Positions 7,235 to 27,277 of a DNA stretch of 28,030 nt are shown in pieces. The DNA comes from a virus. Every line of letters starts with the position of its first letter. Within the stretch, counting starts at the first letter, position 1. The position numbers and the translations under genes are program-made. The notes under the pieces are model-generated. The model saw nothing but the letters and a program-made list of their open reading frames with translations. It searched no databases and had not been told where the DNA came from. Location: positions 1 through 28,030 of IMG/VR virus record IMGVR_UViG_3300035670_001034. One strand, given 5' to 3'.

Positions 7235-7533
7235 CGGATATACCTGCGGGATATTTGAAACTCAAGGGCATTTACCCTTTTGCGAACTTCTTCTTTGGTT
7301 AGATCGCTTTCGATTACCTTGGGGATTTCTTTCCGAAGGACATCTAGCGTTAATGACTGATAATAGGTTGGATCCACGAGGGAGACCTCTTGTTTCTCAC
7401 CAGAGAGAAGAGAGAAGCAGAATGCTTCGAGTGAAACACCCTGCTCCTCAGCTTGTCGTTCTAGATGAAAAAAGAGAGTCTCGGGGAGCCGTAGGTTCAG
7501 ATCCCTATACATTGTTTGACTCTCTGTAATCAT
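7231..7533 (-). CDS. Ribbon-helix-helix-like small protein
   Basis: This gene encodes 100 residues. Residues 11-45 (DLNLRLPETLFFHLERQAEE, then GVSLEAFCFSLL) fit the ribbon-helix-helix pattern of CopG/HicB-type DNA-binding proteins: a short basic strand, a helix, a G-V-S turn, then a second helix. The remaining 55 residues are charged and helical. The gene is translationally coupled on both sides: its ATG overlaps the sheath stop (TAATG) and its stop overlaps the next start (ATGA). A DNA-binding protein between sheath and baseplate genes is unusual. It may autoregulate late genes, or the fold may have been taken over for virion assembly. Function not established. Confidence 0.6.
   Translation of the reverse strand: MITESQTMYRDLNLRLPETLFFHLERQAEEQGVSLEAFCFSLLSGEKQEVSLVDPTYYQSLTLDVLRKEIPKVIESDLTKEEVRKRVNALEFQISRRYIR
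7269..7277 (-). promoter_or_regulatory. GGGTAAATG element (candidate late promoter)
   Basis: This copy lies inside the coding part of the RHH-like gene, 35-43 nt before the gp25-like start. Because it is within coding sequence, its position appears tied to the next start rather than to a gene end. Confidence 0.35.
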
Positions 7534-10500
7534 TACTGACTCAGACCTTGAACTTCAAGTTCCTTCTGCATCTGACCGATCGCCACACGGATGAGGTCGA
7601 TCTGGATACGCTCGAGGGTCGGAACAGGAGTCACGAACACCTTAGCATTCACGATGCCGTTCTCAAGATCTTCCGGCGGGTTGATCCGAGGATCACAGAT
7701 CACCTGGAAGGCTTCGGAAGGCTTAGCTCCGAACAGAGCGCCACGGACGTACAGCTGGTTCAAGATGCTATTTCCAATCAGAACGATCTGGTTGTAAATC
7801 ACGTTGAAACCGTCGACCACGTTGAAGATCTGGTTGTCGAACGCCCGACGCAGCGAGCCATACACCACGTTGAGAATAACGCGAGTGTTGACGAACTGAT
7901 ACAGCTTCTGCTGTGCATCGTCGGGATTGAGCAGACGGGTGCGACCACCCCAGATGAATACCGCGTTGTCGGGGTATCCGGGGAGGGTACGAACCACGTT
8001 GCAACCCTTCGGATTGAGCAGGTTCTGCTGAGAGGAGTTGACGGGAATCTGAACAGCCTGAGCATCGCGCAGCTGATACTTAACACCGGCAGGCGGGAAC
8101 TGGTATCCCTCGGAACGGTAGCGGCGGATGGCCACACCGGTAACATAGGGCGACGGAGGAATCCACTGGCCAGCGCCGTTCTCGATGTAGGGACCGTAGT
8201 AGGCAATGAAGCCAAACGGGTTACCGTACAGTTGAGAATCGTCGAAGAGGCGGTTGACGTTATCCACACCAGCTTCGATGAACTCGGCCTGAGGCTCACC
8301 AGAGAAGCCAACGCCACGCAGAGCGTCGTCGATGATCTCGGTGGAAGTGATCGCATCAAAGCGCCACAGCTCCTTGGGAATGCCTTGCTCAGGGGTGAAC
8401 ACCAGCTCAACTTGGCTACCGTAGCAGGTCTGACCAGCGGAGGTCAGATCGCCACCGTTTGTATCGGCAGGTACAACAACCCAATCATAGCTGGATCCGT
8501 TGTAGGTCATGACGATGCGGTCGCCAACCACGACAGGGGTACCATCGGGAGCGAAGCCAGCGGTGTCTACTTGGAAGTAGCAACCAGTCAGCTTAGCCTG
8601 GTCGAAGTTCATCTGGTTGGAGCTATCGCCAATCTGGATGCCCAGAGCAGCGGCGTAACCGTAGTTGCCTACAGCAGCAACGTTCAGAACAGCACCACCA
8701 AAGGCAGCAGACAGGGTCACAGTGTCAGCAGCAGCATAACCGCGACCGCCATCAGAAATCACAGCGTTAGTGATGTTACCGCCGGAAACGGTGATGGTCA
8801 GAAGCAGGCCAACTCCAGTGCCGCTGGTGGAAGCGGGAGCTACGTTGGTGTAAATACCGTCGGTAGCGGGACCGGCTGCCACAGGGAAGCCAGAGATCAG
8901 TGTTGCAGCATCGAGACCTACAACGGCGCTGATAGAACCGTAGGTGGACAGCACGCCAGTGATGGGCAAGTTGCCACCGCCGAAGGGAGTAGTAGGCAGA
9001 GTTACAACGCTGGTATTAGTGTAACCTTCACCCGGATCGTTGATGTCGATCTGAGTGATCACACCACCACTAATCTTAACAGTCAGCACCAGGCCAGCGC
9101 CGGTTCCTGTGGTTGTGGTCGGAACCACATTGTTATAGATCCCGTCAGGAGCACCGGTAGCAGGGAATGCACCGAATGTGGCGGCGGGGCCAATGGTTCC
9201 AGATCCAACGGTTCCGTTGTAAAGACCGGCGAAGATCGGGTCAATCGCAGGCACGAAGTAAGCTTCGGACTGGAAGAACTGATCAACTGTGGGAACACAG
9301 TAGGCGTTCAGAACAGCGGGAACAGGAGTTCCATCAGGATTTACAGTGTTCAGCTTAGGAAGATAATCACACTGGGTGTTGGAGCTAATGTCCTCACCAT
9401 AAGGGGTGATTTGATCTTCGCCCAGAATCAGAGCACTGTTGTTCAGGTAGATGGAGGTCTCAGGGTTGGCGTATACAGTGTTACCTGTGGGAGCCAGAGT
9501 AGCATCCAGAGCCTGGTTCCAGATGGTGTTGGAGTCGAAAGCGTACTTCCGAGCGCGAACCATTGGAAGTGTAAGCAGCTCAACAGGATTGACAACGGTC
9601 TCTCCTTTACCCAGCACTTGGCTGTAGAAGATGGTCGGCAGAGAGCTTACGGTTCCGGTGGGGAACTGAAGGTAGTTATTGGTGGTATAGTTCGCCAGGG
9701 AGTTAGACAGGGCAAACGAATCCAGGTCAATAACCTTCACGTAGTAGGCACGGGTCACCAGTTTCGTGGTGGCACGAATCAGGTTGCTGGTCAGACCGCC
9801 GCTGGTTACAGTTACGGGCTGAGTGAAGTAGATCTTCTGACCGTTGCGCAGACCGTGAGAAATCACGTTGAAGGATGCGGTTCCAGCGGGCACGATTGTG
9901 CCAGCGTAAGAGGTGATCAGAGTAGAGGGGTTCAGGATCGTGCGGCTCACCCAGTTCAGAACATAGGTGTTGGTAGGATCCTGCAGAGTGCCGGGCAGGT
10001 GCTGAGTGTTCAGACCTACGGTTTCTCCCGAGATGTTCTCAACGAGGTCAGAAGTCTGACCGTTGATTTCCACAGGGAGATCCCAATAAGGATCGGCGTA
10101 GCGCAGAACTGCGGTGTCGCCAGATGCACCAGGGATGTAGATCGAACCTACAACAGGCTCACTAATATAGTCCGAACCGTTGGCCAGAACCACAGAGTTA
10201 TAGACGCTGGAAGCATCGGAACCGGTGGTAGCCAGCAGAACATAGTTCAGCGAGTAAGCCGAATCGGTGATCAGGTTGCGAGGAGCAGCGACCACAAACA
10301 CTTCGGTGCCAGACAGGTTCTGAGCTACGTCAACGTTGGTGACAGTGAGAGTAACTGTACCGAAGATGCCGCCAGGGACGAATGTATCGCCAGGGGCATA
10401 ACCGTTGCCGCCATTGACAACAACCACGTTCGAAACTTCGCCAGCAGCGTTGGTGGTGATTGTAAGAGTACCGCCAATACCTGCACCGGAGGAGGAAGCA

Positions 10501-12014
10501 ATGGGTACACCTGTAGTGGTGGTCGAGGCAGGGAAACCGGATCCAGGTACGGTGATCGAAGCCTGGTACACCGGACCTGTGATGGTCGGGTTGTCGTCGG
10601 CGAAACCACGAACGTAAACGTTAGTGAAGTCGTTACCAACGCTGATTCCAGACAGGTTCACACGCTGAATGGGCAGCTCGACAGGCCAGTAGGCGACGGT
10701 GTTCAGTTCGAACACACCCCAAGCGGCACTACCAACTGCAGCAATCGTGTAGCTAGCAGGATCGAGCAGACCGATCTTCACACTGTCGGCCACAAGGTTG
10801 GCGGACTCGTTGATGGCGGTTGCAGCGTTCTCACCAGGGACGATGTCCTGGTAGGTAGCCTTAGGGTAGCTAACGTCGTTACCAATCCACTTGTAGATGG
10901 CGTTATCGACCAGATACTTCTTGCCTTCCTCAAGGTCAGCAGCAGGCTTATGAGGTACGAAATCCTGATACTCGTTGATGTCGGTGACCAGGTAAGGACC
11001 GGGATCAGCCAGAGCCATCCACTTGAAGTTGTTATTCTCGCAATGTGCAGCAGCAGCAGCGCCAACCAGAGAACGACCATCAGCGTCGAACTGAGCATAA
11101 GCGGTAGGGGTGATCAGGTAGCCCTGGTCCTGTACGCCGTCAAACGCAGTGTTGATGCACTGAGTGTAGTCTTGGGGAACACGCTCGATAGCCACGCTAC
11201 CGCCAACAATATTGGCAACATCGTAAGCATTCTGCATAAACACGAAGTTGGTGCCAACGGGCAGCACTTCGGTGATTACAGAAACATCGGCGTTGAAAGT
11301 TGTAGCGGCGATGGTGATGTAGCTCAGTTCGGAGTTGCTGGCCGGATCAACATCGTTGACCATGCCCACCTTACGAACATAAACAGAGCTACGAACAGCA
11401 GGGTTGGTCTCAATGGCTTCGGCAACAGCAGCAGCGATAGCGGCAGAGATCTTACGGTTGTTGGCTTCATCGCCAGCAACGTAGGTCACAGGGATTTCAA
11501 CGGGAACACCCAGCCACTCACCGTCAGAGGTGTAGCCGGTGGAACCGTCGCCAGCAACCAGCTTCAAGCCGTTCAGGATCATCTGAACATACACCTTATT
11601 GCCAGCCTGCAGGGCAGAGGGCAGGTCGGTGCTGTTGAGTTTGGTAGCAGCAGGATTGAAAGAAATCTCGGTGATTTCGTTGGGGGTACCAACGCGAACC
11701 ACACGCAGATCACCGGTCACAGCGTTCTGGAAGAACTCGTTGACGCAGTTATAGCTCAGCAGGGGAATGCGGCTCTCGGGGACTGTGGAGTTGCCAATCC
11801 GAATGAGTTCTTTATAGTCATTCAGGGAAGAGATCGCAATCGGCTGGTTAAAGGGGAAGCGGGTAACGGGTACACCTTCCTCAGTTTCCACCAGCATGTA
11901 GACGGTGCTGAAATCAGCAATACCGCCAAAAGCAACCTTGCCAGGTTGCTCATTGATGTAAACGCCGGGAGCTCCAGGGGTGTTACCACTGGTCCCGAGG
12001 GAAAAAGTTGCCAT
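7533..12014 (-). CDS. Contractile tail sheath protein, greatly enlarged
   Basis: This gene encodes 1493 residues and the tail sheath, which contracts to drive the tube into the host. The N-terminus (GAPGVYINEQPG) and a C-terminal block of about 190 residues carry sheath signatures: VFIWGGRTRLL, then RVILNVVYGSLRRAF, then FQVICDPRINPPEDLENG. Typical sheaths have 400-700 residues. Here the middle is enlarged by glycine-rich beta repeats at about 476-566, 943-1025 and 1031-1118. Each reads roughly DGIY.N...TGTGAGL.LT..V.GG.I......G.GY. The same repeat occurs in the 399-aa gene at 17919-19118. Such inserts probably sit on the outer tail surface. The gene has no TTA, CTA or TCA codon over nearly its whole length, which suggests very high expression. 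A structured leader of about 110 nt precedes the ATG. Confidence 0.9.
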   Translation of the reverse strand: MATFSLGTSGNTPGAPGVYINEQPGKVAFGGIADFSTVYMLVETEEGVPVTRFPFNQPIAISSLNDYKELIRIGNSTVPESRIPLLSYNCVNEFFQNAVTGDLRVVRVGTPNEITEISFNPAATKLNSTDLPSALQAGNKVYVQMILNGLKLVAGDGSTGYTSDGEWLGVPVEIPVTYVAGDEANNRKISAAIAAAVAEAIETNPAVRSSVYVRKVGMVNDVDPASNSELSYITIAATTFNADVSVITEVLPVGTNFVFMQNAYDVANIVGGSVAIERVPQDYTQCINTAFDGVQDQGYLITPTAYAQFDADGRSLVGAAAAAHCENNNFKWMALADPGPYLVTDINEYQDFVPHKPAADLEEGKKYLVDNAIYKWIGNDVSYPKATYQDIVPGENAATAINESANLVADSVKIGLLDPASYTIAAVGSAAWGVFELNTVAYWPVELPIQRVNLSGISVGNDFTNVYVRGFADDNPTITGPVYQASITVPGSGFPASTTTTGVPIASSSGAGIGGTLTITTNAAGEVSNVVVVNGGNGYAPGDTFVPGGIFGTVTLTVTNVDVAQNLSGTEVFVVAAPRNLITDSAYSLNYVLLATTGSDASSVYNSVVLANGSDYISEPVVGSIYIPGASGDTAVLRYADPYWDLPVEINGQTSDLVENISGETVGLNTQHLPGTLQDPTNTYVLNWVSRTILNPSTLITSYAGTIVPAGTASFNVISHGLRNGQKIYFTQPVTVTSGGLTSNLIRATTKLVTRAYYVKVIDLDSFALSNSLANYTTNNYLQFPTGTVSSLPTIFYSQVLGKGETVVNPVELLTLPMVRARKYAFDSNTIWNQALDATLAPTGNTVYANPETSIYLNNSALILGEDQITPYGEDISSNTQCDYLPKLNTVNPDGTPVPAVLNAYCVPTVDQFFQSEAYFVPAIDPIFAGLYNGTVGSGTIGPAATFGAFPATGAPDGIYNNVVPTTTTGTGAGLVLTVKISGGVITQIDINDPGEGYTNTSVVTLPTTPFGGGNLPITGVLSTYGSISAVVGLDAATLISGFPVAAGPATDGIYTNVAPASTSGTGVGLLLTITVSGGNITNAVISDGGRGYAAADTVTLSAAFGGAVLNVAAVGNYGYAAALGIQIGDSSNQMNFDQAKLTGCYFQVDTAGFAPDGTPVVVGDRIVMTYNGSSYDWVVVPADTNGGDLTSAGQTCYGSQVELVFTPEQGIPKELWRFDAITSTEIIDDALRGVGFSGEPQAEFIEAGVDNVNRLFDDSQLYGNPFGFIAYYGPYIENGAGQWIPPSPYVTGVAIRRYRSEGYQFPPAGVKYQLRDAQAVQIPVNSSQQNLLNPKGCNVVRTLPGYPDNAVFIWGGRTRLLNPDDAQQKLYQFVNTRVILNVVYGSLRRAFDNQIFNVVDGFNVIYNQIVLIGNSILNQLYVRGALFGAKPSEAFQVICDPRINPPEDLENGIVNAKVFVTPVPTLERIQIDLIRVAIGQMQKELEVQGLSQ
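8660..9190 (-). repeat. Two adjacent glycine-rich repeat units within the sheath gene
   Basis: Two units of about 80 codons each share DGIY.N, a TGTG(A/V)GL segment, G.GY(T/A) and a terminal YG. A third, more diverged unit lies at about 10317-10585. They are related to four units in the gene at 17919-19118. Confidence 0.7.
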
Positions 12015-12125
12015 TTTATTATGGGGGGAATCCTTCCATTCCGTCTCCCTGTGATGGCGAAGGCGATTCCATCGTGGTGCCCGTAGGCCAGGGTTTCGGG
12101 TTATTCAACGAGTACTTTTACCCGG
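12015..12125 (-). promoter_or_regulatory. Structured 5' leader of the sheath gene
   Basis: This 111-nt gap contains GGGTAAAAG (12115-12123), a CGGGT/ACCCG pairing between that element and bases about 20 nt further on, and a hairpin at 12053-12073 (GATGG with CCATC). AAGGA lies 17 nt before the ATG and no closer ribosome site is evident. Confidence 0.4.
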
Positions 12126-12504: not shown

Positions 12505-13116
12505 CTAAGGGGTCAGGTAACGGAAAGAGTAACCTTTGAGTTTCCCTTTGGTTTTGGTTCGGTTTTTTCTAGCTGCGTCAGCTACAGAGACTGGGTGAAC
12601 TCCGAGCAGTTTACCCGCCTCTTTTGTGGAACTGAAAGTTTTTTTCGCTCCATCCGGATAAGTCACTTCGACTTCTTTATTGAGGGGGTTATTCTCGCCA
12701 GATACGGAGCACGGGCTCTTTCCAACCAGGTTTTGGTTCCCCAACATTGCTTCTCTGAGTTTACGTCTAGTAGACGCACTCTTTTTACGTCCACGCCGTG
12801 CTAGGCTCTGCTTTTTGCGGGTTTCTAGAGAGACAGGTCTACCCGCTTGAGAAGGAGGTCTTCCTGCTACGGGGTTCAAGTTATAGCACTGTTCTGTTCC
12901 ATAGAACATATCTAGAAGTGCTTGCTCTAGTACTGGTTCTCCGCACTCATCGGACCGTACTTCCCATATGAAGTCTTCTGGACTCTTACGTAGAGCATTT
13001 TGGAAGGGGTAGTTTTGTTTGGACTGTAGGTGGCAGTATTTGCGCCATTCGAAGTTTATGGTGCTGCCAATATAGAATCTACCGTTTTTGGTGTTTGTTG
13101 CGATGTAGGTATCCAT
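12505..13116 (-). CDS. GIY-YIG homing endonuclease with NUMOD domains
   Basis: This gene encodes 203 residues, a free-standing homing nuclease. Residues 1-20 hold a GIY-YIG variant (TYIATNTKNGRFYIGST). A conserved glutamate follows in PVLEQALLDMFYG, and CYNLNPVAGR closes the catalytic domain. Residues 95-135 look like NUMOD3 DNA-binding repeats (SLETRKKQSLARRG, then STRRKLREAMLGN). The C-terminus (VTYPDGAKKTF.S..EAGKLLGV...SV..A.......KG..FRY) is a NUMOD1-type helix-turn-helix unit. These enzymes cut cognate genomes lacking the insert and spread by repair. The gene interrupts the tail assembly cluster, and I see no intron signature around it. Confidence 0.9.
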   Translation of the reverse strand: MDTYIATNTKNGRFYIGSTINFEWRKYCHLQSKQNYPFQNALRKSPEDFIWEVRSDECGEPVLEQALLDMFYGTEQCYNLNPVAGRPPSQAGRPVSLETRKKQSLARRGRKKSASTRRKLREAMLGNQNLVGKSPCSVSGENNPLNKEVEVTYPDGAKKTFSSTKEAGKLLGVHPVSVADAARKNRTKTKGKLKGYSFRYLTP

Positions 13117-14688: not shown

Positions 14689-14917
14689 TGGTTATGTGAG
14701 TGAGGTTGTCTAGTTTTACCCGTTGTTCGAAGATTCGATCTTCTAGAGCCATGTCTCCGTAGCCTGCAGGTAGGGACAGGTAGATCCCGTTTGCTTCCTT
14801 CCAACTGAACTCAGCATCTTGGTAAAGACCGAGTTCGATTCGATCGTCAACATCGTCAAGCCAGAACCCGACACAGACTTTGCGAAACTCAGGATCAATC
14901 GGAAGGGGGAAGGACAT
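14672..14917 (-). CDS. Small protein of unknown function
   Basis: This gene encodes 81 residues, acidic with several aromatic residues (CVGFWLDDVDDRIELGLYQD, FSWKEANGIYLSLPAGYGD). There are no cysteine pairs and no signal or membrane segment. The start is coupled to the upstream gene by TAATG, and the end overlaps the tail chaperone gene by 17 nt. It also carries the GGGTAAAAC element within its last codons. I do not recognise the family. Its position at the head of the tail assembly cluster suggests a structural or assembly role, but that is inference. Confidence 0.65.
   Translation of the reverse strand: MSFPLPIDPEFRKVCVGFWLDDVDDRIELGLYQDAEFSWKEANGIYLSLPAGYGDMALEDRIFEQRVKLDNLTHITNENNL
14713..14721 (-). 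promoter_or_regulatory. GGGTAAAAC element (candidate late promoter)
   Basis: This copy lies inside the coding sequence of the 81-aa gene, 25-33 nt before the tail chaperone start. Like the copy at 7269, it is at a fixed distance before a start rather than at a gene end. Confidence 0.4.
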
Positions 14918-15105
14918 TAGAGAGCGCGAAGCATGTTTACGGTTTGCTGAAGGGAGAAATACCGAGCATTATAAGCGCATTCCACAGAGGAAGGAATGAT
15001 TCGGTTCTTTTTGTCGTAAGGCACTGTCATATAATAGGTATCGAGGACTCCCTTGTAAAGGAGCACACCGACGTTTTCCACACGGGACTTCTTGACTTTT
15101 TTCAT
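14917..15105 (-). CDS. Small basic protein of unknown function
   Basis: This gene encodes 62 residues with a lysine-rich N-terminus (MKKVKKSRVENVG) and several tyrosines (YKGVLDTYYMTVPYDKKNR). It is coupled to the polymerase gene by TGATG at its start and to the next gene by TAATG at its end, which supports real translation. The pattern VGVLLYKGVLDTYYMTVPYDKK reads as alternating strands. I do not recognise the family. A helper of the polymerase or a transition gene between the replication and tail modules are both possible. Confidence 0.6.
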   Translation of the reverse strand: MKKVKKSRVENVGVLLYKGVLDTYYMTVPYDKKNRIIPSSVECAYNARYFSLQQTVNMLRAL

Positions 15106-17885
15106 CAGATTACTCCTTTTTGAATAGCGTTGTAACGGTTGGTAAGTTTGTCGATGGCTCCGATTTCATTGAGCTCATACATTGAGTATTCGGTGCCGAA
15201 CTCCTCGGTTTCACCTTTCGGGTTGGAGAGAGTCACGGTCTTCTCCTTAGGGGATTTGCGAAGGCGCTCGTCAATCGCAACCGAGGAGAAGTAGGCTCGA
15301 GAGAGGGGAAGATCTGGGATCCCCACTGCCGAGTGGAACAGGGACCAGGTATACATATGAGCGATTTGGAATAGAACAGCAAACTGTTCAGCGTAACGCT
15401 CCGGAGTCATAAACCAAATCTCGTCATGGATGCTCAGAACGAAACGAGCTGGGATTTTGTACTCTGCGGTTAGCCAGTGGACTGCTGTGAGCATAATGGA
15501 CAGGATCTCAGCACCAGAGGACTGAATGGTCCAGTTTACGCGGCCTGTCTTGAAGTCATCGCCGACGGCAGCGGGACGCATTGCCGTGGAGATTTTGGTT
15601 CCGAGACAAGGTAGCTGAGGCACACGGGACCGCATCGCAATCTCTTCCATGAAGTTGAAGCAGCCTGAGTCAGACCCTCCTTCGTACAACCCGTTCCGGA
15701 GCCTTCCTTTCTTACCTTCGAGAATACGATAAGCAAAGTTTTTTACTTCGTTCGGGGACTTCTCGGGGTATTTCCGTCGGATGTAGGTTTGCACGGCGCG
15801 GACCCCAGCCCCGTAGAGCACCGCGAAACCTGCGATTTTGGCGGTGTCCCGGTCCACGCCAGCCAGCTTAGCAAGAGCACTATGGGGATCAGTCCCCGCC
15901 TCTTTTGACCCGGAAAGAACGTTGTAACCAAACGGCGAACATCCAACATGACCACCTTCCCACTTGTCAGAGTAGATTGAAGCGATTTGCATCTCTTGAC
16001 CATCAAAGTCAGCGCCAACGATCTTCCAGCCATCGGGTGCTTGCACACGAGACTTCAACTCGGTGCCAATGCGCCAGTTTTTCGTTGAGCACATTGTCAC
16101 CATAAGAGATTCCACAGTGCGGCGGGTGACGGTTCCGTGGCAGAGAATCTCAGGGAGGGTGACAAGAGCATCTTCGCCATGGGGATTGGCAACGGGAAGG
16201 AAGATCCGGTCCATCACGCGCTTGCGAACCGAAGTCCAATATGAGACCGCGTTCGCGATCTCAAGTGCCCGTTTCGCCTCTGGTAGGTCGCTATTGAGCC
16301 GACCCACCTTCATATCGTCGACAAAGTCTTTCGAAAGCACCCCGCCAACATTTGCTCCTGTTCCTTTCGGGTGAGGAATCTTCTGTGCTTTGCCTTCTTC
16401 GTCATGATATTTCCAACCTTCACTCTTAGTGTGATACATTGGAGAGCCTTCCCAAGTTAGCTTGAGTAGAATGTGTGAAAGATTGCTCTTGACGCCGATG
16501 TGTTCGTTGGGGTCCTTAATGAATGGGCGAACCCAGTTTGGGATTCCAGCATACTTGCCTTTCTGTGTCTTAACCTCCCAGTCTAGTTGCGAGAGCCAAG
16601 GGTCCCGCGCAATCCAGGACTCGGCCATTCCCGGCTCAGCATAATAAAGATCACGCCACTCGTCATAATACTTCCAGACAAGATCTTGACACAGCTTCGT
16701 CATTTCCTTGTTGTGCTCATCGAAGACTCGCTCGACATTCTTGATCCAGTCTTCCCAGTCGGGGACGAGTGGGACGATGGAACCGTTCAGATGATAGTGA
16801 CCACAAAGTGCTGTGAGGCTTGGGGTCGCATCGACATACTTAGGCCACAGAGCCTGGAAGAGTTCGGCAGTGTAGAATGCGTCTTTGATGGCGTAATCGA
16901 CAGCATCGGTTAGCATCTGCCGAATCTGACTCAGATGAGTTGCTGATACGAAAATGTCCCGCACTGCCTTGTCCCCGGCGCCCAAAGGCTGAACATCGTC
17001 TCCGAAAAACTTACGCACTTCGTAAACGTGAAAGTTGTAAGTGGCCACCAGAGAGTTGGTGGAACCTTCGTCCAGCCACTTGGGGGCATACCTTAGCTTT
17101 CGTTTTTCTTCGTCAGTAAGGTTCTCAGGGTCCTTACCAGCCAGAACATATAACCAGCGCTGGCCACTGGCAAGACCAGATACGCCAATGTGTGCAGAGA
17201 GTGTGTCAAAATAGAAGTTTTCGGGTTTGGTGCGATCGAGTGAGTAACCCTCGCGGGCGCGGACTCGGTCGTAGGAAATATTGTGGCCAACTACAAAGCG
17301 ATTCTCACCAATCGGAATCAGCGAGTGTTGGTCCCACTGATCCTCCGGGATGCTCGGATCAATAAGTTCAGAAGCCAGCCAAATGTAAGCCGCTTTGGTA
17401 GATAGCGCAGTGCCAATAATCGGAAACGCGCCACCATGCACATAAGTCTCAGTATCGAACGTGAATGCTTTTTCCAGAGGATACGGTACAGATTCCGTCT
17501 TCCACTTGCCGCGTACCTTCGTGTAGCGCGTCCAGCCGGGCTTGAATACAAGCTCGGTTCTCGGCGGGATTTCTGGTAGTGTGCAAACTGCATAAACATC
17601 CGCGAGCTCCTTATACTCGCCTACTTGTTCTTTCGCAATCTCCTCAAAGTGTGCTCTGAGGTTGCCACCTTTGAGCTTCGGTAGAGGGAGGGGACCATCA
17701 TAAAGGTGATCAGGATAGTCAACGGGAGTGGCAATGTCGAACTCCTTCAGCAGGTTCTCGGCCCGTTGCATTTCCAGCCGAGACATTTTCTTAGGAGTTT
17801 CCTTACCAAAAATCCTCTCGTGAAGATCTTCAGAGAGGACTGGATAGCCGAGAGGTGTTTTCCGCATAGGCGATAGGTTTTGCAT
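15105..17885 (-). CDS. Family A DNA polymerase, mitochondrial Pol gamma-like
   Basis: This gene encodes 926 residues, a replicative DNA polymerase with 3'-5' proofreading. Exo I is FTFDTE (D144, E146). Exo II is VVGHNISYDR (D206), very close to the VVGHNVSFDR of Pol gamma. Exo III has Y331 and D335. Motif A is VGADFDGQEMQIAS (D626), motif B RDTAKIAGFAVLYGAG (R679, K683, F687, Y691) and motif C LSIHDEIWF (H820, D821, E822). Motif B matches the R..AKI.....YGAG of Pol gamma rather than the usual Pol I form. A long spacer (about 350-590) separates the domains, as in Pol gamma. There is no 5'-nuclease domain. F687 sits where human Pol gamma has Tyr951. The -10 box ends about 7 nt before the ATG, so the transcript may be leaderless. 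Confidence 0.93.
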   Translation of the reverse strand: MQNLSPMRKTPLGYPVLSEDLHERIFGKETPKKMSRLEMQRAENLLKEFDIATPVDYPDHLYDGPLPLPKLKGGNLRAHFEEIAKEQVGEYKELADVYAVCTLPEIPPRTELVFKPGWTRYTKVRGKWKTESVPYPLEKAFTFDTETYVHGGAFPIIGTALSTKAAYIWLASELIDPSIPEDQWDQHSLIPIGENRFVVGHNISYDRVRAREGYSLDRTKPENFYFDTLSAHIGVSGLASGQRWLYVLAGKDPENLTDEEKRKLRYAPKWLDEGSTNSLVATYNFHVYEVRKFFGDDVQPLGAGDKAVRDIFVSATHLSQIRQMLTDAVDYAIKDAFYTAELFQALWPKYVDATPSLTALCGHYHLNGSIVPLVPDWEDWIKNVERVFDEHNKEMTKLCQDLVWKYYDEWRDLYYAEPGMAESWIARDPWLSQLDWEVKTQKGKYAGIPNWVRPFIKDPNEHIGVKSNLSHILLKLTWEGSPMYHTKSEGWKYHDEEGKAQKIPHPKGTGANVGGVLSKDFVDDMKVGRLNSDLPEAKRALEIANAVSYWTSVRKRVMDRIFLPVANPHGEDALVTLPEILCHGTVTRRTVESLMVTMCSTKNWRIGTELKSRVQAPDGWKIVGADFDGQEMQIASIYSDKWEGGHVGCSPFGYNVLSGSKEAGTDPHSALAKLAGVDRDTAKIAGFAVLYGAGVRAVQTYIRRKYPEKSPNEVKNFAYRILEGKKGRLRNGLYEGGSDSGCFNFMEEIAMRSRVPQLPCLGTKISTAMRPAAVGDDFKTGRVNWTIQSSGAEILSIMLTAVHWLTAEYKIPARFVLSIHDEIWFMTPERYAEQFAVLFQIAHMYTWSLFHSAVGIPDLPLSRAYFSSVAIDERLRKSPKEKTVTLSNPKGETEEFGTEYSMYELNEIGAIDKLTNRYNAIQKGVI

Positions 17886-17918: not shown

Positions 17919-19118
17919 TCAGAGGGTGCCGATGGGAGGTGCGACAGGGTTGTCCTGTACAGGATACAGGAACGAATATTGAATCGCTTGCTGGTTGGCA
18001 TTCGGCGGAACGAAGTCGGCGACTTGGTTCTGGAAGAAGCGGTGGGGAACTTGGGCCCACTTGGGCTCGCTCGCGTCGGTGGTTGTGCTTACAGAGGTTA
18101 CGGTGATTACGAGGCCTGTTCCGGCCCCGACGGTGGTAGGGTCGGGAATCAGGGCATCGCCGGCAGCGTAACCAGTACCAGCAGCGTTCAGGATTACGCT
18201 AGTGATGCTACCGGAGGCTCCAACAATGATATCTAAGGTTGCACCAGAGCCAACGCCGGTTGTGGTTGTGGTTACCGCTGTGTAAGATCCAGGAGTGTAT
18301 CCTGTACCCGTTGTCCCCACTTGGAATGCAGTAATGGGACCGCCGATTGGGCCAACGGTGACGAAGAAACCAGTTCCAGAGCCCATACCGGCTGTCACGG
18401 TGAGGCCGTCTCCAGCAGTGTAACCAGAGCCTGCGGCATTGATGGAGGCTGCGGTAACGTAGCCATTAGCATCTACAGTGACATTCAGAGTGGCGCCTGT
18501 GCCACTACCACCTGCAGTGGGAAGTCCAGTGTAAGTGCCGGGAAGATAACCGCTGCCTGCGCCTAACGTAGTCAGAGAGGTGATGGGACCGGTTGCAAAG
18601 GTGTACGAGTGAACGTCGTACTCGAACATTGTCGGATCGCCCGGATTCACGTTATAGGCGTTCGGAGGAAGTTCGGTATAGTAATCGTAGTAGTTGGTAG
18701 TCCAACCTTTGAGAGCGGGGCGGACTGATTTGGTGTTTACAGTTGCAACTGTAACCGTTGCGCTGGTTCCTGCAGCAGTGCGAGGAATGTTGCCAAGAGT
18801 CAACACCTGACCAACGAAAAAGTTGCTGCCGCCAGCGGTGATTGTAACACCGGTTACAGCGCCTCCGGATACTGTTACAGTAGCATACCCGAAAGAGCCA
18901 ACTGCACCACCGAGATAGGTGTTTGGGTAAGTGCCGTCGGTGTAGTTGGTGCCTCCGGTGAAGGTGACTGTATCGATAGCACCGACAGTTCCAGCGACGG
19001 AAACTGCCGTGGCGGTGTCAAGGTAACCGTTTAGAATGATATTGCCGTAATTTTCGAGGTCGGGGGTGGTAAAGGTGGCCTCCACCGCCTTCGCCATTTG
19101 AACTGTGCGTGGAATCAT
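17919..19118 (-). CDS. Repeat-rich probable virion protein
   Basis: This gene encodes 399 residues from the ATG at 19118 (MIPRTVQMAK); an in-frame start at 19172 would overlap the upstream gene, and an ATG at 19097 is also possible. After about 45 residues come four glycine-rich units of 70-80 residues, with motifs GSGY(L/T)(P/A)G, GSGTGA, a V.G.(V/I)T.(A/V) segment and GTGYAAGD. They are related to the inserts in the tail sheath. The last 45 residues are different (WAQVPHRFFQNQVADFVPP) and may anchor the protein. Such repeats in cyanophage structural proteins are thought to form beta-rich surface modules. A tail fibre, sheath-associated or head surface role is possible. GGGTAAAAC lies 24-32 nt before the start, suggesting late expression. 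Confidence 0.75.
   Translation of the reverse strand: MIPRTVQMAKAVEATFTTPDLENYGNIILNGYLDTATAVSVAGTVGAIDTVTFTGGTNYTDGTYPNTYLGGAVGSFGYATVTVSGGAVTGVTITAGGSNFFVGQVLTLGNIPRTAAGTSATVTVATVNTKSVRPALKGWTTNYYDYYTELPPNAYNVNPGDPTMFEYDVHSYTFATGPITSLTTLGAGSGYLPGTYTGLPTAGGSGTGATLNVTVDANGYVTAASINAAGSGYTAGDGLTVTAGMGSGTGFFVTVGPIGGPITAFQVGTTGTGYTPGSYTAVTTTTTGVGSGATLDIIVGASGSITSVILNAAGTGYAAGDALIPDPTTVGAGTGLVITVTSVSTTTDASEPKWAQVPHRFFQNQVADFVPPNANQQAIQYSFLYPVQDNPVAPPIGTL
18080..18990 (-). repeat. Four tandem glycine-rich beta repeat units
   Basis: Four units of roughly 210-240 bp encode G..GY..G....., then GSGTGA, then a strand pair. They are homologous in pattern to the repeats at about 8660-9190 and 10317-10585 in the sheath gene. 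Confidence 0.65.
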
Positions 19119-19141
19119 CGTGCCACTCGGGAATATATTCG

Positions 19142-19150
19142 GTTTTACCC
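19142..19150 (-). promoter_or_regulatory. GGGTAAAAC element (candidate late promoter)
   Basis: The GGG TAA AAC contains the stop codon of the 88-aa gene and lies 24-32 nt before the start of the repeat-rich virion gene. Confidence 0.4.
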
Positions 19151-19411
19151 TCCAAAATCGCACTCCCAGCACAGTCGACCGGGTGCTTCATCGTAAAGAC
19201 CTAGGTTGCGAGCTTCGTTAATAGCGTCTAAGAGAGCCTTATCATTCTTGAGGCGCCGATGCAATCGCAAACGCCACATGCAATACGCTTTTGCGTTCTT
19301 TTCGTTGGGTTGAGTGCAATATCTTTGGTAATAGGACTCAACCGTTTGTACCATGCCGATGCCAACCTTGGCGATAAGGTGGTCGACGGGGTTAAGAGCG
19401 TGAACTTTCAT
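19145..19411 (-). CDS. Small protein of unknown function
   Basis: This gene encodes 88 residues, helical and basic in the middle (AKAYCMWRLRLHRRLKNDKALLDAINEARN), with a C-terminal RLCWECDFGG that contains a CxxC (CWEC). A single CxxC could hold metal together with the upstream cysteines or be redox-active, but that is speculative. The ATG overlaps the stop of the preceding gene (ATGA), so the two are coupled. The length and gene order do not identify a known family. Confidence 0.65.
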   Translation of the reverse strand: MKVHALNPVDHLIAKVGIGMVQTVESYYQRYCTQPNEKNAKAYCMWRLRLHRRLKNDKALLDAINEARNLGLYDEAPGRLCWECDFGG

Positions 19412-20208
19412 TGAGGGAAGGCAAACTGTTTGAGTTCGAACTGGCGGAGACCCGTTTTTTCGTACACCGCGTCTTTATTTTTGCGGTATACCTCGTAGGC
19501 GTCGAAGATGGCGCTGAAGTTTATGGGGCGTTCGGCGGGAATATCACGCCAGGTGAGCATTTCAGTGAGGGTAAGGGGCATGTCGATGTCCCATTGCTCA
19601 TCACGGGACCCGTATAGCAGGGGGAGAGCATCGTTCCGCCACCAATCGGTGACTTGATCAATGGCGGAGTCCCAAGTTTCGGGGTCAGTGAGGTGGGTGT
19701 CATATTCTTCGCGCACCCAGGCAACGTATTCACGCCCGCGAGAGACCACTACAGAGGCGGAAGCTGGAACTTCCTCAAGGAAGTAGGCGGAATCTTCGGC
19801 AGACATTACCCGCTCAATAACTGCAGGGAACAGAAATGCCTCCGAGATTAACCGGAAGTCATCAGCACTGTCGCAGATCAGTCGTAGAATACTCTCGAGG
19901 ATGGCAACAGTTGAGGCAATGCGAATCTCATTGTCTGTGGCTGTGGGCGCTGCTGCGACACCTTCTGGGCTCTTACGCAAAAGCGCCAGCTCACGCTCGA
20001 GCCGACGCACTTCACGACCCATCTCGCGTTCTAGTTTAGCCTTGTAAATCTCTGCTTGTGTTAAAATATTGTCGAACTTCCCTTCGATTTTGTCAAGTTC
20101 AGCGTCGAATAACTCGACTTGAACCTTGAGGTTAGACAGTTTCTTCTTCAAGGAGGAAACTGACGACCGCATACTGTTGGTTGCGAGTACGATGTTGTCA
20201 GCAGTCAT
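19408..20208 (-). CDS. Coiled-coil protein of unknown function
   Basis: This gene encodes 266 residues. Residues 10-85 form a long predicted coiled coil (SSVSSLKKKLSNLKVQVELF, then EIYKAKLEREMGREVRRLER), followed by a helical, acidic region with several Trp residues (TWDSAIDQVTDWWRNDALPL). There is no catalytic motif I can name and no signal peptide. It is coupled to the upstream gene by TAATG and to the downstream one by ATGA, so three unknown genes form one translational unit from the promoter at 20780. It could be a structural or DNA-organising protein; function unknown. Confidence 0.7.
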   Translation of the reverse strand: MTADNIVLATNSMRSSVSSLKKKLSNLKVQVELFDAELDKIEGKFDNILTQAEIYKAKLEREMGREVRRLERELALLRKSPEGVAAAPTATDNEIRIASTVAILESILRLICDSADDFRLISEAFLFPAVIERVMSAEDSAYFLEEVPASASVVVSRGREYVAWVREEYDTHLTDPETWDSAIDQVTDWWRNDALPLLYGSRDEQWDIDMPLTLTEMLTWRDIPAERPINFSAIFDAYEVYRKNKDAVYEKTGLRQFELKQFAFPQ

Positions 20209-20759
20209 TAGGAAATGGGTTTGTAAGTTGCCTTGAGAATGTCTTGTTGAACGTCAATGATATCTACATTGAAGGCGTATTGGCGCTCGGGGTCGCTTAG
20301 GAGGTGGAACGCTCCTTCGAAGCGCTCGCCATCGTCGGAACGCAGATAGCTATTGCCAGGTGTTGGCGGTGAGCACAAGGCGATGTCGCCATCGAAATCG
20401 GGGTTGGCTTCGACTAGAGATTTGACAATACGCTCGTAAATGGCGCTGGCTGCCGCCATTTCCATATCGTTTGTAATTTGCGCCTTAAACTCACCCTCAA
20501 CGGGTTTGAGAATGGAGGCGAGGCCCGTGTTCAGGGTAATTTGCACATCACCACTGTCAACGTCAATGGAGAAGCAAACCTCGTCCGCCTCAAACTCGAT
20601 ATCTTCAGGGTCCTCAATATCCGGGAAGTTGTACTCAAGGAGATCGTAAAACGTTTCCTTCAACACATCGGCATCCGGGCCTTCAAGAGCATTGGCAATC
20701 GCGAAGAAGACTCGGGGGTTGCCGAGCAAGCGGGCAACAGGGTAGAAGATTTCAGTCAC
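20208..20759 (-). CDS. Acidic protein of unknown function
   Basis: This gene encodes 183 residues, strongly acidic (FPDIEDPEDIEFEADEVCFS), with an alternating hydrophobic pattern suggesting beta strands (CFSIDVDSGDVQITLNTGL). There is no membrane segment or nuclease motif. The start is GTG at 20759, supported by GGAG 10 nt upstream and a promoter whose expected start lies about 14 nt upstream. Acidic proteins of this size are often inhibitors or DNA mimics in phages, but nothing specific supports that here. Family not recognised. Confidence 0.7.
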   Translation of the reverse strand: MTEIFYPVARLLGNPRVFFAIANALEGPDADVLKETFYDLLEYNFPDIEDPEDIEFEADEVCFSIDVDSGDVQITLNTGLASILKPVEGEFKAQITNDMEMAAASAIYERIVKSLVEANPDFDGDIALCSPPTPGNSYLRSDDGERFEGAFHLLSDPERQYAFNVDIIDVQQDILKATYKPIS

Positions 20760-21001: not shown

Positions 21002-22948
21002 TTAGAGAGTGACGTCAGTGAGAGAGGCAACCTTTATACCCTTGCCGCCGGGTTTGCCTGCCTTGATTGTTAGATCAAGTTTCAGTGCTTTCTTGCGAGA
21101 GGAAGCCCAAGGAACCTGATAGGTGCTTTCGCCAAAGTGAATGATGCTAGCGCCCTCAGGCAGCAACGCCTTCCCTTTGCTGTTTGCACGTGACAGGTCG
21201 GCTCCGTTAAGTGCCATAGCTTTCAGAGAATCCTCCAGCTTGAATACAACGAGATACTTTCTCTCGGTGACTTCTGATTCTTTCTTAGCCAGAAGGACAG
21301 GGGAGTAGCCATTGCCAAGGGTTCCTTTGAAGTTGAACGGAAGTTTCTTCAGTGTGCCGTCTTCGGTCAGGGTGATTAACTTGTCGGATTTCTCGAGAAT
21401 GAGAGCACCGCGAGGACCTTTGGCGGACTCCACGACTCCGCGCTTCATGTCAATTTTCAAGAACTTTGGTTTAGCAGCCGGTGCCGCTTGCCTTTGGGAC
21501 CCTTTCTCGACGATGAGGCTTTCCGGCGGGTCAATAATGGCCGAGCGGCGTGCCTCACCGTGCCGGACGCCAATGGCCTTAATCTCCTTGACCATGTAAG
21601 CTTTACGAGCCTTGTCGTTTTCGATAAGGTCCTTAAGTGTTGCCAAGCGGGTCTCCAGTTCTGCTTTCTCTGCAAGTAACTCTTCCGAGTCCATGTTTGT
21701 AAGGGACCGGAGCTTCATTTCTAAGATTGCCCGAGCTTGCTCACTTGTGAACTTCAGAGAGCGGTTGGAGACGAGTTCGACCAGTGCTTCTTTGGGGCTT
21801 TTTGCTGCGCGGATAACTTTGATGACCAAGTCGATCTTATCGACTGCCTTTAGAAGGCCGAGGACAATCTCGTGACGGGTTTCCTTGGCGTCTAACTCGT
21901 AAGTGAACTTTCGACCAAGGCAACCCAGGCGCCACGTCTGCCATTTTGTGATAAGGTCACGCGAAGGGAGTTCGACTGGTTTACTCCCGTCAAGACATAG
22001 ATTCCTCGCGCTATACGTAGATTCCAAGTCAGTGTATGCGTACAGGTACTTGGTAAGGGCAGAGGCATCGACACCGGGTTTTGCAATAACTTGGATGCAA
22101 TCTCCGGTGTTACAAGAGAGATCGATGACTTCGTTGATTCCATCGAATTTACCTTTTTCAAGACCGTCTTTGATTTGTTGTCCGATTTTCTCAGGGTTTG
22201 TGTTTGGAGGCAGGTTGGTATAACTGAGCGTCGCTCTCTCTTTTGCTCGCCCGCTTTTTTCTTGCACACCAATTTCGAGTTTAGCTCGCAGACGCAAGGT
22301 GCCGCTACCTGTCTTGACGTACTCCTGAAGCCCTTCATCTCGAATAATGTGGCAGCCTGTGGGGAAGTCTGGATACAGATCAGCACCACTCACAACTGCG
22401 TTACAGATGTCGCGTAGGTTATGTGAAGCTAACTTAGTGCTGTATCCCACCGAGATCCCCTCAGTACCATTCAGAAGGATTGCGGGGATTTTCGCATTGA
22501 GTACAACCGCTTCCTTGCGAGAATTGTCGTAGTTGGGTCGAGTTTCCCATGTTTCCCGGTCTTGCAGGAGAATCTCGAGAGCCGAGGTTGTAAGACGGTT
22601 CTCCAGATATCTTTCTGCGGCAGGGGGATCTACGGTGCTTCCTACATTGCCGTGTACGTCGACCCAAGGAATCATGTTGTTCCATGAAGTTGCCATGGAG
22701 ATTAGCGAACCGTAGGCGCTACCGTGGGGGTGGTAGAATGCACTCGTGAGGCCGGTGGTTCGGGCACACTTGACGTAAGGTTTGTTTGGGAGAAGTCCCT
22801 CTTCGAGCATTGTTTGAAGAATGCGTCGGCGTGATGGGATTAAGCCGTCACGGAGATCTGGTAGTGCTCTTGTTAGAGTTGCAAGGCTGTACTCGAGGTA
22901 AGAGTTTTTCACCTCGTGGACGAGGTCGATCGGAGTGTCGTTTTGCAT
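21002..22948 (-). CDS. Type IIA DNA topoisomerase, A (breakage-reunion) subunit
   Basis: This gene encodes 648 residues. The N-terminus follows the GyrA/ParC/T4 gp52 pattern: SLATLTRALPDLRDGLIPSR, RRILQTM, FYHPHG (71-76), DVHGNVGS (97-104) and PPAAERYLENRLT with the DNA-linking R113-Y114. A tower region and a long coiled coil follow, with a shortened C-terminal domain. The usual GyrA has about 875 residues and six beta blades, so this version is more ParC-like or T4-like and may relax or decatenate DNA rather than add supercoils. No ATPase subunit gene is in the window. The -10 boxes lie so close to the ATG at 22948 that the mRNA is probably leaderless. Confidence 0.9.
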   Translation of the reverse strand: MQNDTPIDLVHEVKNSYLEYSLATLTRALPDLRDGLIPSRRRILQTMLEEGLLPNKPYVKCARTTGLTSAFYHPHGSAYGSLISMATSWNNMIPWVDVHGNVGSTVDPPAAERYLENRLTTSALEILLQDRETWETRPNYDNSRKEAVVLNAKIPAILLNGTEGISVGYSTKLASHNLRDICNAVVSGADLYPDFPTGCHIIRDEGLQEYVKTGSGTLRLRAKLEIGVQEKSGRAKERATLSYTNLPPNTNPEKIGQQIKDGLEKGKFDGINEVIDLSCNTGDCIQVIAKPGVDASALTKYLYAYTDLESTYSARNLCLDGSKPVELPSRDLITKWQTWRLGCLGRKFTYELDAKETRHEIVLGLLKAVDKIDLVIKVIRAAKSPKEALVELVSNRSLKFTSEQARAILEMKLRSLTNMDSEELLAEKAELETRLATLKDLIENDKARKAYMVKEIKAIGVRHGEARRSAIIDPPESLIVEKGSQRQAAPAAKPKFLKIDMKRGVVESAKGPRGALILEKSDKLITLTEDGTLKKLPFNFKGTLGNGYSPVLLAKKESEVTERKYLVVFKLEDSLKAMALNGADLSRANSKGKALLPEGASIIHFGESTYQVPWASSRKKALKLDLTIKAGKPGGKGIKVASLTDVTL

Positions 22949-26788: not shown

Positions 26789-27277
26789 TCAACCAATCAC
26801 CTCAACTTCGTGAGGATATGACTTACAAACGTTGGCAACACGGGTAGCCATTCCCTTCAACCACTTGGTATCTTGGGTATTGTTCCTTGCTTTGCGGCGC
26901 CTTTCTAACTCCGTTTCACTAACTTTCAAGCACACCAACTTCATGGACTCTTGTTGAAACAATGCCTCAAGGGTTGGAGCGTTCATGAACCGTTCGCCCT
27001 CCATGAGTACACCCCAATCTTTATACTTTTCCTCATTAGCAACAAGCCACTCGCGAAACTTGGGACCAACAGCTTTGCTCAGTTTGTCACAACCCGCGAA
27101 GGTCGAATCATCGTAAATACCGAGCACGATTGTCTTTTGCTTGTTAAATCTGTGGTACTTGACAAGACCGTCCTCGACAAACTCAGGAGCCTCAGCTTTA
27201 CTGTATTCAGCCATGATTTGCCTCATGAGCGTTGTCTTGCCCGTTCCGGGTTCGCCAACATAAAAAGTTACGCGCAT
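26789..27277 (-). CDS. P-loop NTPase, unknown role (kinase-like?)
   Basis: This gene encodes 162 residues. The N-terminus (TFYVGEPGTGKTTLMRQIM) is a clear Walker A motif with K14 and T15. A strand ending VLMEGERFM may supply acidic residues for Mg2+ binding. A later basic segment (ETELERRRKARNNTQDTKWL) resembles the lid of small nucleoside or nucleotide kinases. The size fits a small phage kinase or a reduced ATPase, but the substrate is unknown. The ATG at 27277 overlaps the stop of the endonuclease VII-like gene by 10 nt, so both share one transcript. A terminator follows directly. Confidence 0.7.
   Translation of the reverse strand: MRVTFYVGEPGTGKTTLMRQIMAEYSKAEAPEFVEDGLVKYHRFNKQKTIVLGIYDDSTFAGCDKLSKAVGPKFREWLVANEEKYKDWGVLMEGERFMNAPTLEALFQQESMKLVCLKVSETELERRRKARNNTQDTKWLKGMATRVANVCKSYPHEVEVIG

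Follow-up and report, generated by a model that had tools for sequence, protein, structure and literature searches.

Polymerase locus and neighboring genes

The window, meaning the whole stretch of DNA that was analyzed, is a linear virus record from IMG/VR of 28,030 bases; the contig represents a 28-kb fragment. At exactly the coordinates given in the original prediction, its minus strand contains an open reading frame that encodes a complete family A DNA polymerase of the Pol gamma type, the type that replicates mitochondrial DNA in animals and fungi. The enzyme resembles neither Pol I nor T7 polymerase in type. The features of this gene and its neighbors are listed below by window position.

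14917..15105, minus strand: small protein, 62 aa, conserved downstream of the polymerase, with a one-base overlap between its start and the polymerase stop
15105..17885, minus strand: family A DNA polymerase of the Pol gamma type, 926 aa, ATG start
15420..15434, minus strand: motif C, SIHDE, residues 818-822 (D821); 134-row alignment
15804..15851, minus strand: motif B, RDTAKIAGFAVLYGAG, residues 679-694, in which Phe687 corresponds to human Tyr951; sequence and 134-row alignment
15978..16022, minus strand: motif A, residues 622-636 (D626); 134-row alignment
16116..16838, minus strand: thumb and spacer region, residues 350-590; alignment and model
16869..16895, minus strand: Exo III motif, YAIKDAFYT, residues 331-339 (Y331, D335); sequence and 134-row alignment
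17265..17294, minus strand: Exo II motif, VVGHNISYDR, residues 198-207 (D206); sequence and 134-row alignment
17436..17462, minus strand: Exo I motif, residues 142-150 (D144, E146); invariant in 134 sequences
17919..19172, minus strand: repetitive tail or structural-type protein, 417 aa
19408..20208, minus strand: 266-aa protein, conserved throughout the S-CBWM1 clade on the upstream side of the polymerase
20208..20759, minus strand: 183-aa protein, conserved neighbor
21002..22948, minus strand: DNA topoisomerase II or gyrase A-like subunit, 648 aa; S-CBWM1 likewise has it upstream of its polymerase

From the topoisomerase through the 183-aa protein, the 266-aa protein, the polymerase, and the small proteins to the neck protein, the gene order agrees with that of Synechococcus phage S-CBWM1 and is kept in most of the clade around it. 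The 266-aa protein was present in 148 of the 275 polymerase loci, many of the others being too short on that side. It directly adjoins the polymerase in S-CBWM1 and is a candidate polymerase partner; in the window, the 417-aa gene, which S-CBWM1 does not have at this place, lies between the polymerase and the conserved upstream neighbors. The rest of the window encodes a Mu-type portal, a head protease, a major head protein, a tail sheath, and neck and baseplate proteins, and from these structural genes the window looks like part of a myovirus.

Three other places in the window deserve mention. The tail sheath-like gene (7533-12014, minus strand, 1493 aa) is faced on the opposite strand by an open frame of 1512 aa (7548-12086, plus strand), which is probably an effect of codon usage. 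A free-standing GIY-YIG homing endonuclease with NUMOD motifs is encoded at 12505-13116 and had matches in only five related loci. The protein encoded at 26789-27277 resembles P-loop nucleotide kinases and also matches a PHROG of phage terminase small subunits.

Family matches, predicted fold, and catalytic residues

In Pfam, residues 67-350 of the polymerase matched the mitochondrial polymerase exonuclease domain (PF18136, E=8e-62, profile positions 6-282 of 282), and residues 608-840 matched the family A polymerase domain above the cut-off (PF00476, E=1e-10). The PHROG match was to phrog_22619, a phage DNA polymerase family (E=6e-225). The nearest solved structures in phmmer searches were those of human (3e-114) and yeast (1e-110) Pol gamma, whereas bacterial Pol I was found only near chance, with an E value of about 0.1.

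The structure was predicted from a 42-row alignment, as the prediction from the single sequence reached a pLDDT of only 35. The resulting model has a mean pLDDT of 86.6 and a pTM of 0.86. The first 36 Foldseek matches in the PDB were all Pol gamma structures, with TM scores up to 0.85; the Klenow fragment and T7 polymerase came after these, at about 0.36. VIA-align superimposed the model on Pol gamma with a Z score of 42.4 over 846 residues (rmsd 3.3), compared to about 29 for yeast Mip1 and about 16 for other family A enzymes. As modeled, the fold tracks human Pol gamma over almost its whole length, including the stretch between the exonuclease and the polymerase. Residues 350-590, singled out in the original prediction for a structural check, were modeled with good confidence except for a short loop at 584-591, and they matched the Pol gamma fold.

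The length of the interdomain spacer differs between the enzymes. In the alignment, the stretch from D428 to H505 comprises 77 aa in both the window polymerase and S-CBWM1, 94 in S-TIM5, 105 in Mic1, and 124 in yeast; by PDB chain numbering, the human equivalent comprises about 272 aa. The extra spacer sequence of human Pol gamma includes the part that binds POLG2.

The motifs quoted in the original prediction are present at residues 198-207 (VVGHNISYDR), 679-694 (RDTAKIAGFAVLYGAG), and 818-822 (SIHDE). Residues D144, E146, D206, Y331, D335, D626, R679, K683, Y691, and D821 are invariant in 134 aligned phage and eukaryotic sequences. The claim that the motifs follow the Pol gamma form was borne out for the catalytic residues, all of which are present, but not for residue 687, which is Phe in the window and Tyr (Tyr951 in human) in yeast, human, Mic1, and S-TIM5. 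Throughout the 134 sequences this position is Phe in 83 and Tyr in 51. The use of dideoxynucleotides by Pol I and T7 polymerase depends on this position; the window enzyme is therefore predicted to use dideoxynucleotides poorly and, unlike Pol gamma, should discriminate against them. Together with the short spacer, Phe687 indicates that the window enzyme is no copy of the mitochondrial one. That S-CBWM1 and A-HIS lack the tyrosine was already remarked upon in the paper describing Mic1 (PMC7156551).

Two further variations were seen in the polymerase domain. In 47 of the 134 sequences, including S-TIM5 and a member of its clade (locus L079, 9983-12667), motif C reads HDS and not HDE, a serine replacing the glutamate beside the catalytic aspartate. 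The loop between motifs A and B, just before motif B, is 38-68 residues long in 23 sequences, namely S-CBWM1 (47 residues), A-HIS1/2, and about 20 IMG/VR relatives; about 11 residues make up the loop in the enzymes of the window, yeast, and human. Long and short loops both occur within the S-CBWM1 clade.

Relatives, hosts, and phylogeny

Among 50,697 phage records, full-length relatives were found only in cyanophages, and the set recovered with the window polymerase as query was reproduced with Mic1 as query. Identity to the window polymerase was 58% for S-CBWM1, 38% for S-TIM5 and its kin, 33% for Mic1, and 28-32% for A-HIS1/2. In IMG/VR, the relatives number well over a hundred, with 178 confirmed stretches in one scan; the A-HIS2 query found no relatives there, so that the A-HIS branch remains two sequences. 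Eight out of 20 related phage records contained psbA, the photosystem II D1 gene, and this links the group to cyanobacteria. The window, a 28-kb fragment, yielded neither a tRNA nor a photosystem gene, and its host and the rest of its replisome are for this reason judged from the relatives.

A search for the polymerase in plasmids returned no match. A scan of 84,980 bacterial and archaeal genomes, which depends on short peptide patterns and may overlook remote members, returned a single match, on a contig in a Microbacteriaceae MAG (locus L142, CALGUV010000157.1). This contig carries the polymerase with its clade's usual neighbors, an RNA ligase-like gene, and phosphatases; these other genes suggest a phage contig that was misbinned, and no bacterial home for the polymerase was found in these genomes.

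The original prediction had seen no obvious gene for an accessory subunit nearby, and the search of relatives agrees: the POLG2-type anticodon-binding domain (PF03129) was detected in none of 20 related phage records, some of which may hide genes by being fragments, and in all 14 controls. Yeast Mip1 works without an accessory subunit. Since the other cyanophage records searched also yielded none and Mip1 does without one, its lack here is unremarkable. Searches of the related phage records for a T7-like RNA polymerase (with T7 matched as positive control) and for a DnaB/Twinkle-type helicase returned nothing. As none of these three components was found in the related records, there is no sign of a mitochondrial-type replisome as a set, nor that Twinkle or POLRMT accompanies Pol gamma as part of one module in these phages.

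We calculated a phylogeny from 31 Pol gamma-type sequences. The eukaryotes in it are two opisthokont sequences, yeast and human, both on long branches; their rows were assembled from PDB alignments, the human row without parts of the spacer. The phage enzymes fall into four groups, the S-CBWM1, S-TIM5, A-HIS, and Mic1 types, and the window polymerase lies inside the S-CBWM1 clade (support 100/100). With outgroups added, the Pol gamma group, including the window polymerase, was separated from Pol I and T7 polymerases by a branch with 100/100 support.

Yeast and human grouped with the Mic1 type (100/100). This grouping persisted with outgroups and with either eukaryote omitted, and was recovered from the exonuclease and polymerase halves separately. 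Residues found exclusively in both eukaryotes and one phage group number 18 for the Mic1 type, three for A-HIS, two for S-TIM5, and one for the window's clade; because larger groups are less often uniform, the two-member A-HIS type is the fair comparison. Alignment identity to yeast and human was 39-40% for the Mic1 type. The trees constraining the eukaryotes to group with the window's clade (AU-test p 7.6e-6, at a cost of 109 log-likelihood units), with the S-TIM5 clade (p 2e-7), or with A-HIS (p 0.015) were rejected. Every rooted tree draws the eukaryotes nested within the phages; however, a tree with all phage enzymes in a single clade and the eukaryotes outside was not rejected (AU-test p 0.305). 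A profile search with Mic1 plus yeast found no phage enzyme nearer to the eukaryotes than the Mic1 type. Judged from these sequences, the phage enzymes closest to mitochondrial Pol gamma in the present sample are those of the Mic1 type, and not those of the window's clade.

Role and relation to the mitochondrial enzyme

With a probability of about 0.9, the window protein is a Pol gamma-like replicative DNA polymerase of a cyanobacterial myovirus related to S-CBWM1. The analysis itself shows the sequence, the predicted fold, the catalytic residues, the phylogeny, and the gene neighborhood; the activity of the enzyme, its role in replication rather than repair, the action of its residues, and its cyanobacterial host we infer from the family. 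A single polypeptide would combine a 3'-5' proofreading exonuclease (residues ~67-350) with a palm-fingers-thumb polymerase (~520-880), joined by a Pol gamma-type spacer much shorter than the human one. The enzyme would copy the phage genome by primer extension: D626 and D821 would hold two metal ions, R679, K683, F687, and Y691 of the O-helix would grip the incoming nucleotide, and misinserted bases would be removed at an exonuclease site formed by D144, E146, D206, and D335. A POLG2-like clamp is probably not required.

The shared family A motifs A to C and weak matches to T7-like phage polymerases (phrog_17; CRP-171) speak for a conventional phage polymerase, Pol I-like or T7-like, that has only generic motifs in common with Pol gamma. 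We give this reading practically no weight, given that the Pol gamma-type exonuclease domain was matched at 8e-62 while PF18136 had no match in any of 14 control genomes, that the Z score of the fold is 42 against 16, and that the tree forcing the window polymerase together with the Pol I/T7 outgroup was rejected (p 0.013). The protein tree, which the original prediction had named as its own refuting test, came out in its favor, with the window polymerase outside the Pol I and T7-like clades. A polymerase for repair or recombination is also unlikely, if somewhat less so. Several cellular family A enzymes serve in repair, and S-CBWM1 has a separate annotated "polymerase" of 957 nt as well as a Pol III epsilon-like exonuclease; against this, the proofreading domain of the window enzyme is intact, mitochondrial Pol gamma is a replicase, and no second full-size DNA polymerase is annotated in S-CBWM1.

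A replicative Pol gamma-like enzyme could in addition belong to the very phage lineage that gave rise to mitochondrial Pol gamma, and across about 800 alignment columns the window polymerase is 33-35% identical to the yeast and human enzymes. With the present sampling, we consider such an ancestry highly improbable: uniting its clade with the eukaryotes has the likelihood cost given above (p 8e-6), and the Mic1 type exceeds it both in identity and in exclusive residues, 18 versus one. The original description of the window polymerase as close to mitochondrial Pol gamma is thus apt relative to other family A enzymes; among phages, Mic1 is closer. The suggestion that it could add a second branch beside S-TIM5 did not hold, as the window polymerase lies in the S-CBWM1 branch, which was known before, and the published phage Pol gamma enzymes already include those of A-HIS1/2, S-TIM5, S-CBWM1, and Mic1 (PMC7156551). 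Phage Pol gamma has been described before, as has its relevance to mitochondria, and the window adds a member to the S-CBWM1 branch.

Where the mitochondrial replicase came from has long been asked, and the main lead is phage Pol gamma. With the metagenomic sequences included, the phage side divides into at least four separate clades, linked to cyanobacteria as far as their hosts are known. We put at slightly less than even odds that eukaryotic Pol gamma came from a cyanophage-type enzyme and sits inside the phage part of the tree, the Mic1 type being its sister and the clades of the window and S-TIM5 more distant; were this true, the window's clade would be an outer branch that roots the transfer, not its source. 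As a useful by-product, the analysis places eukaryotic Pol gamma next to the Mic1 type and not next to the clade of the window or of S-TIM5. The little-sampled Mic1 type, rather than the S-TIM5 or S-CBWM1 type, is the place to look for the mitochondrial origin. The window enzyme, as a well-preserved member, could serve for enzymological comparison with Pol gamma.

Among the known enzymes, the S-CBWM1 polymerase (YP_009816435, annotated as "DNA polymerase gamma" in MG450654) is the most similar to that of the window, sharing identity over the full length, the neighboring genes, the Phe at the place of Tyr951, and the 77-aa spacer; it differs in its longer loop before motif B and in the absence of the 417-aa gene just upstream. 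S-TIM5 is also alignable over the full length and has the same domain plan, but belongs to a separate clade, with Tyr at the 951 place and HDS in motif C. Human POLG and yeast Mip1 share the whole fold, the exonuclease and polymerase motifs, and the interdomain spacer with the window enzyme, but fall into a different clade and have the tyrosine; the human enzyme, with its far longer spacer, uses the accessory subunit POLG2. The polymerase of the Microcystis phage Mic1 (ORF85/86) is likewise of the Pol gamma type, but sits in the separate clade with eukaryotic Pol gamma, and its gene is interrupted by an intron.

Several of the relatives also have interrupted polymerase genes. Those of L058, L067, and L076 carry inserts; the L067 insert holds an endonuclease-like ORF and the L058 insert sits just before motif B, and neither matches Rfam. 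The interruption at L215:7468-7686 gave a weaker match to a group I intron, and the one at L212:6779-7082, inside the polymerase gene, matched a group I intron above the Rfam gathering score.
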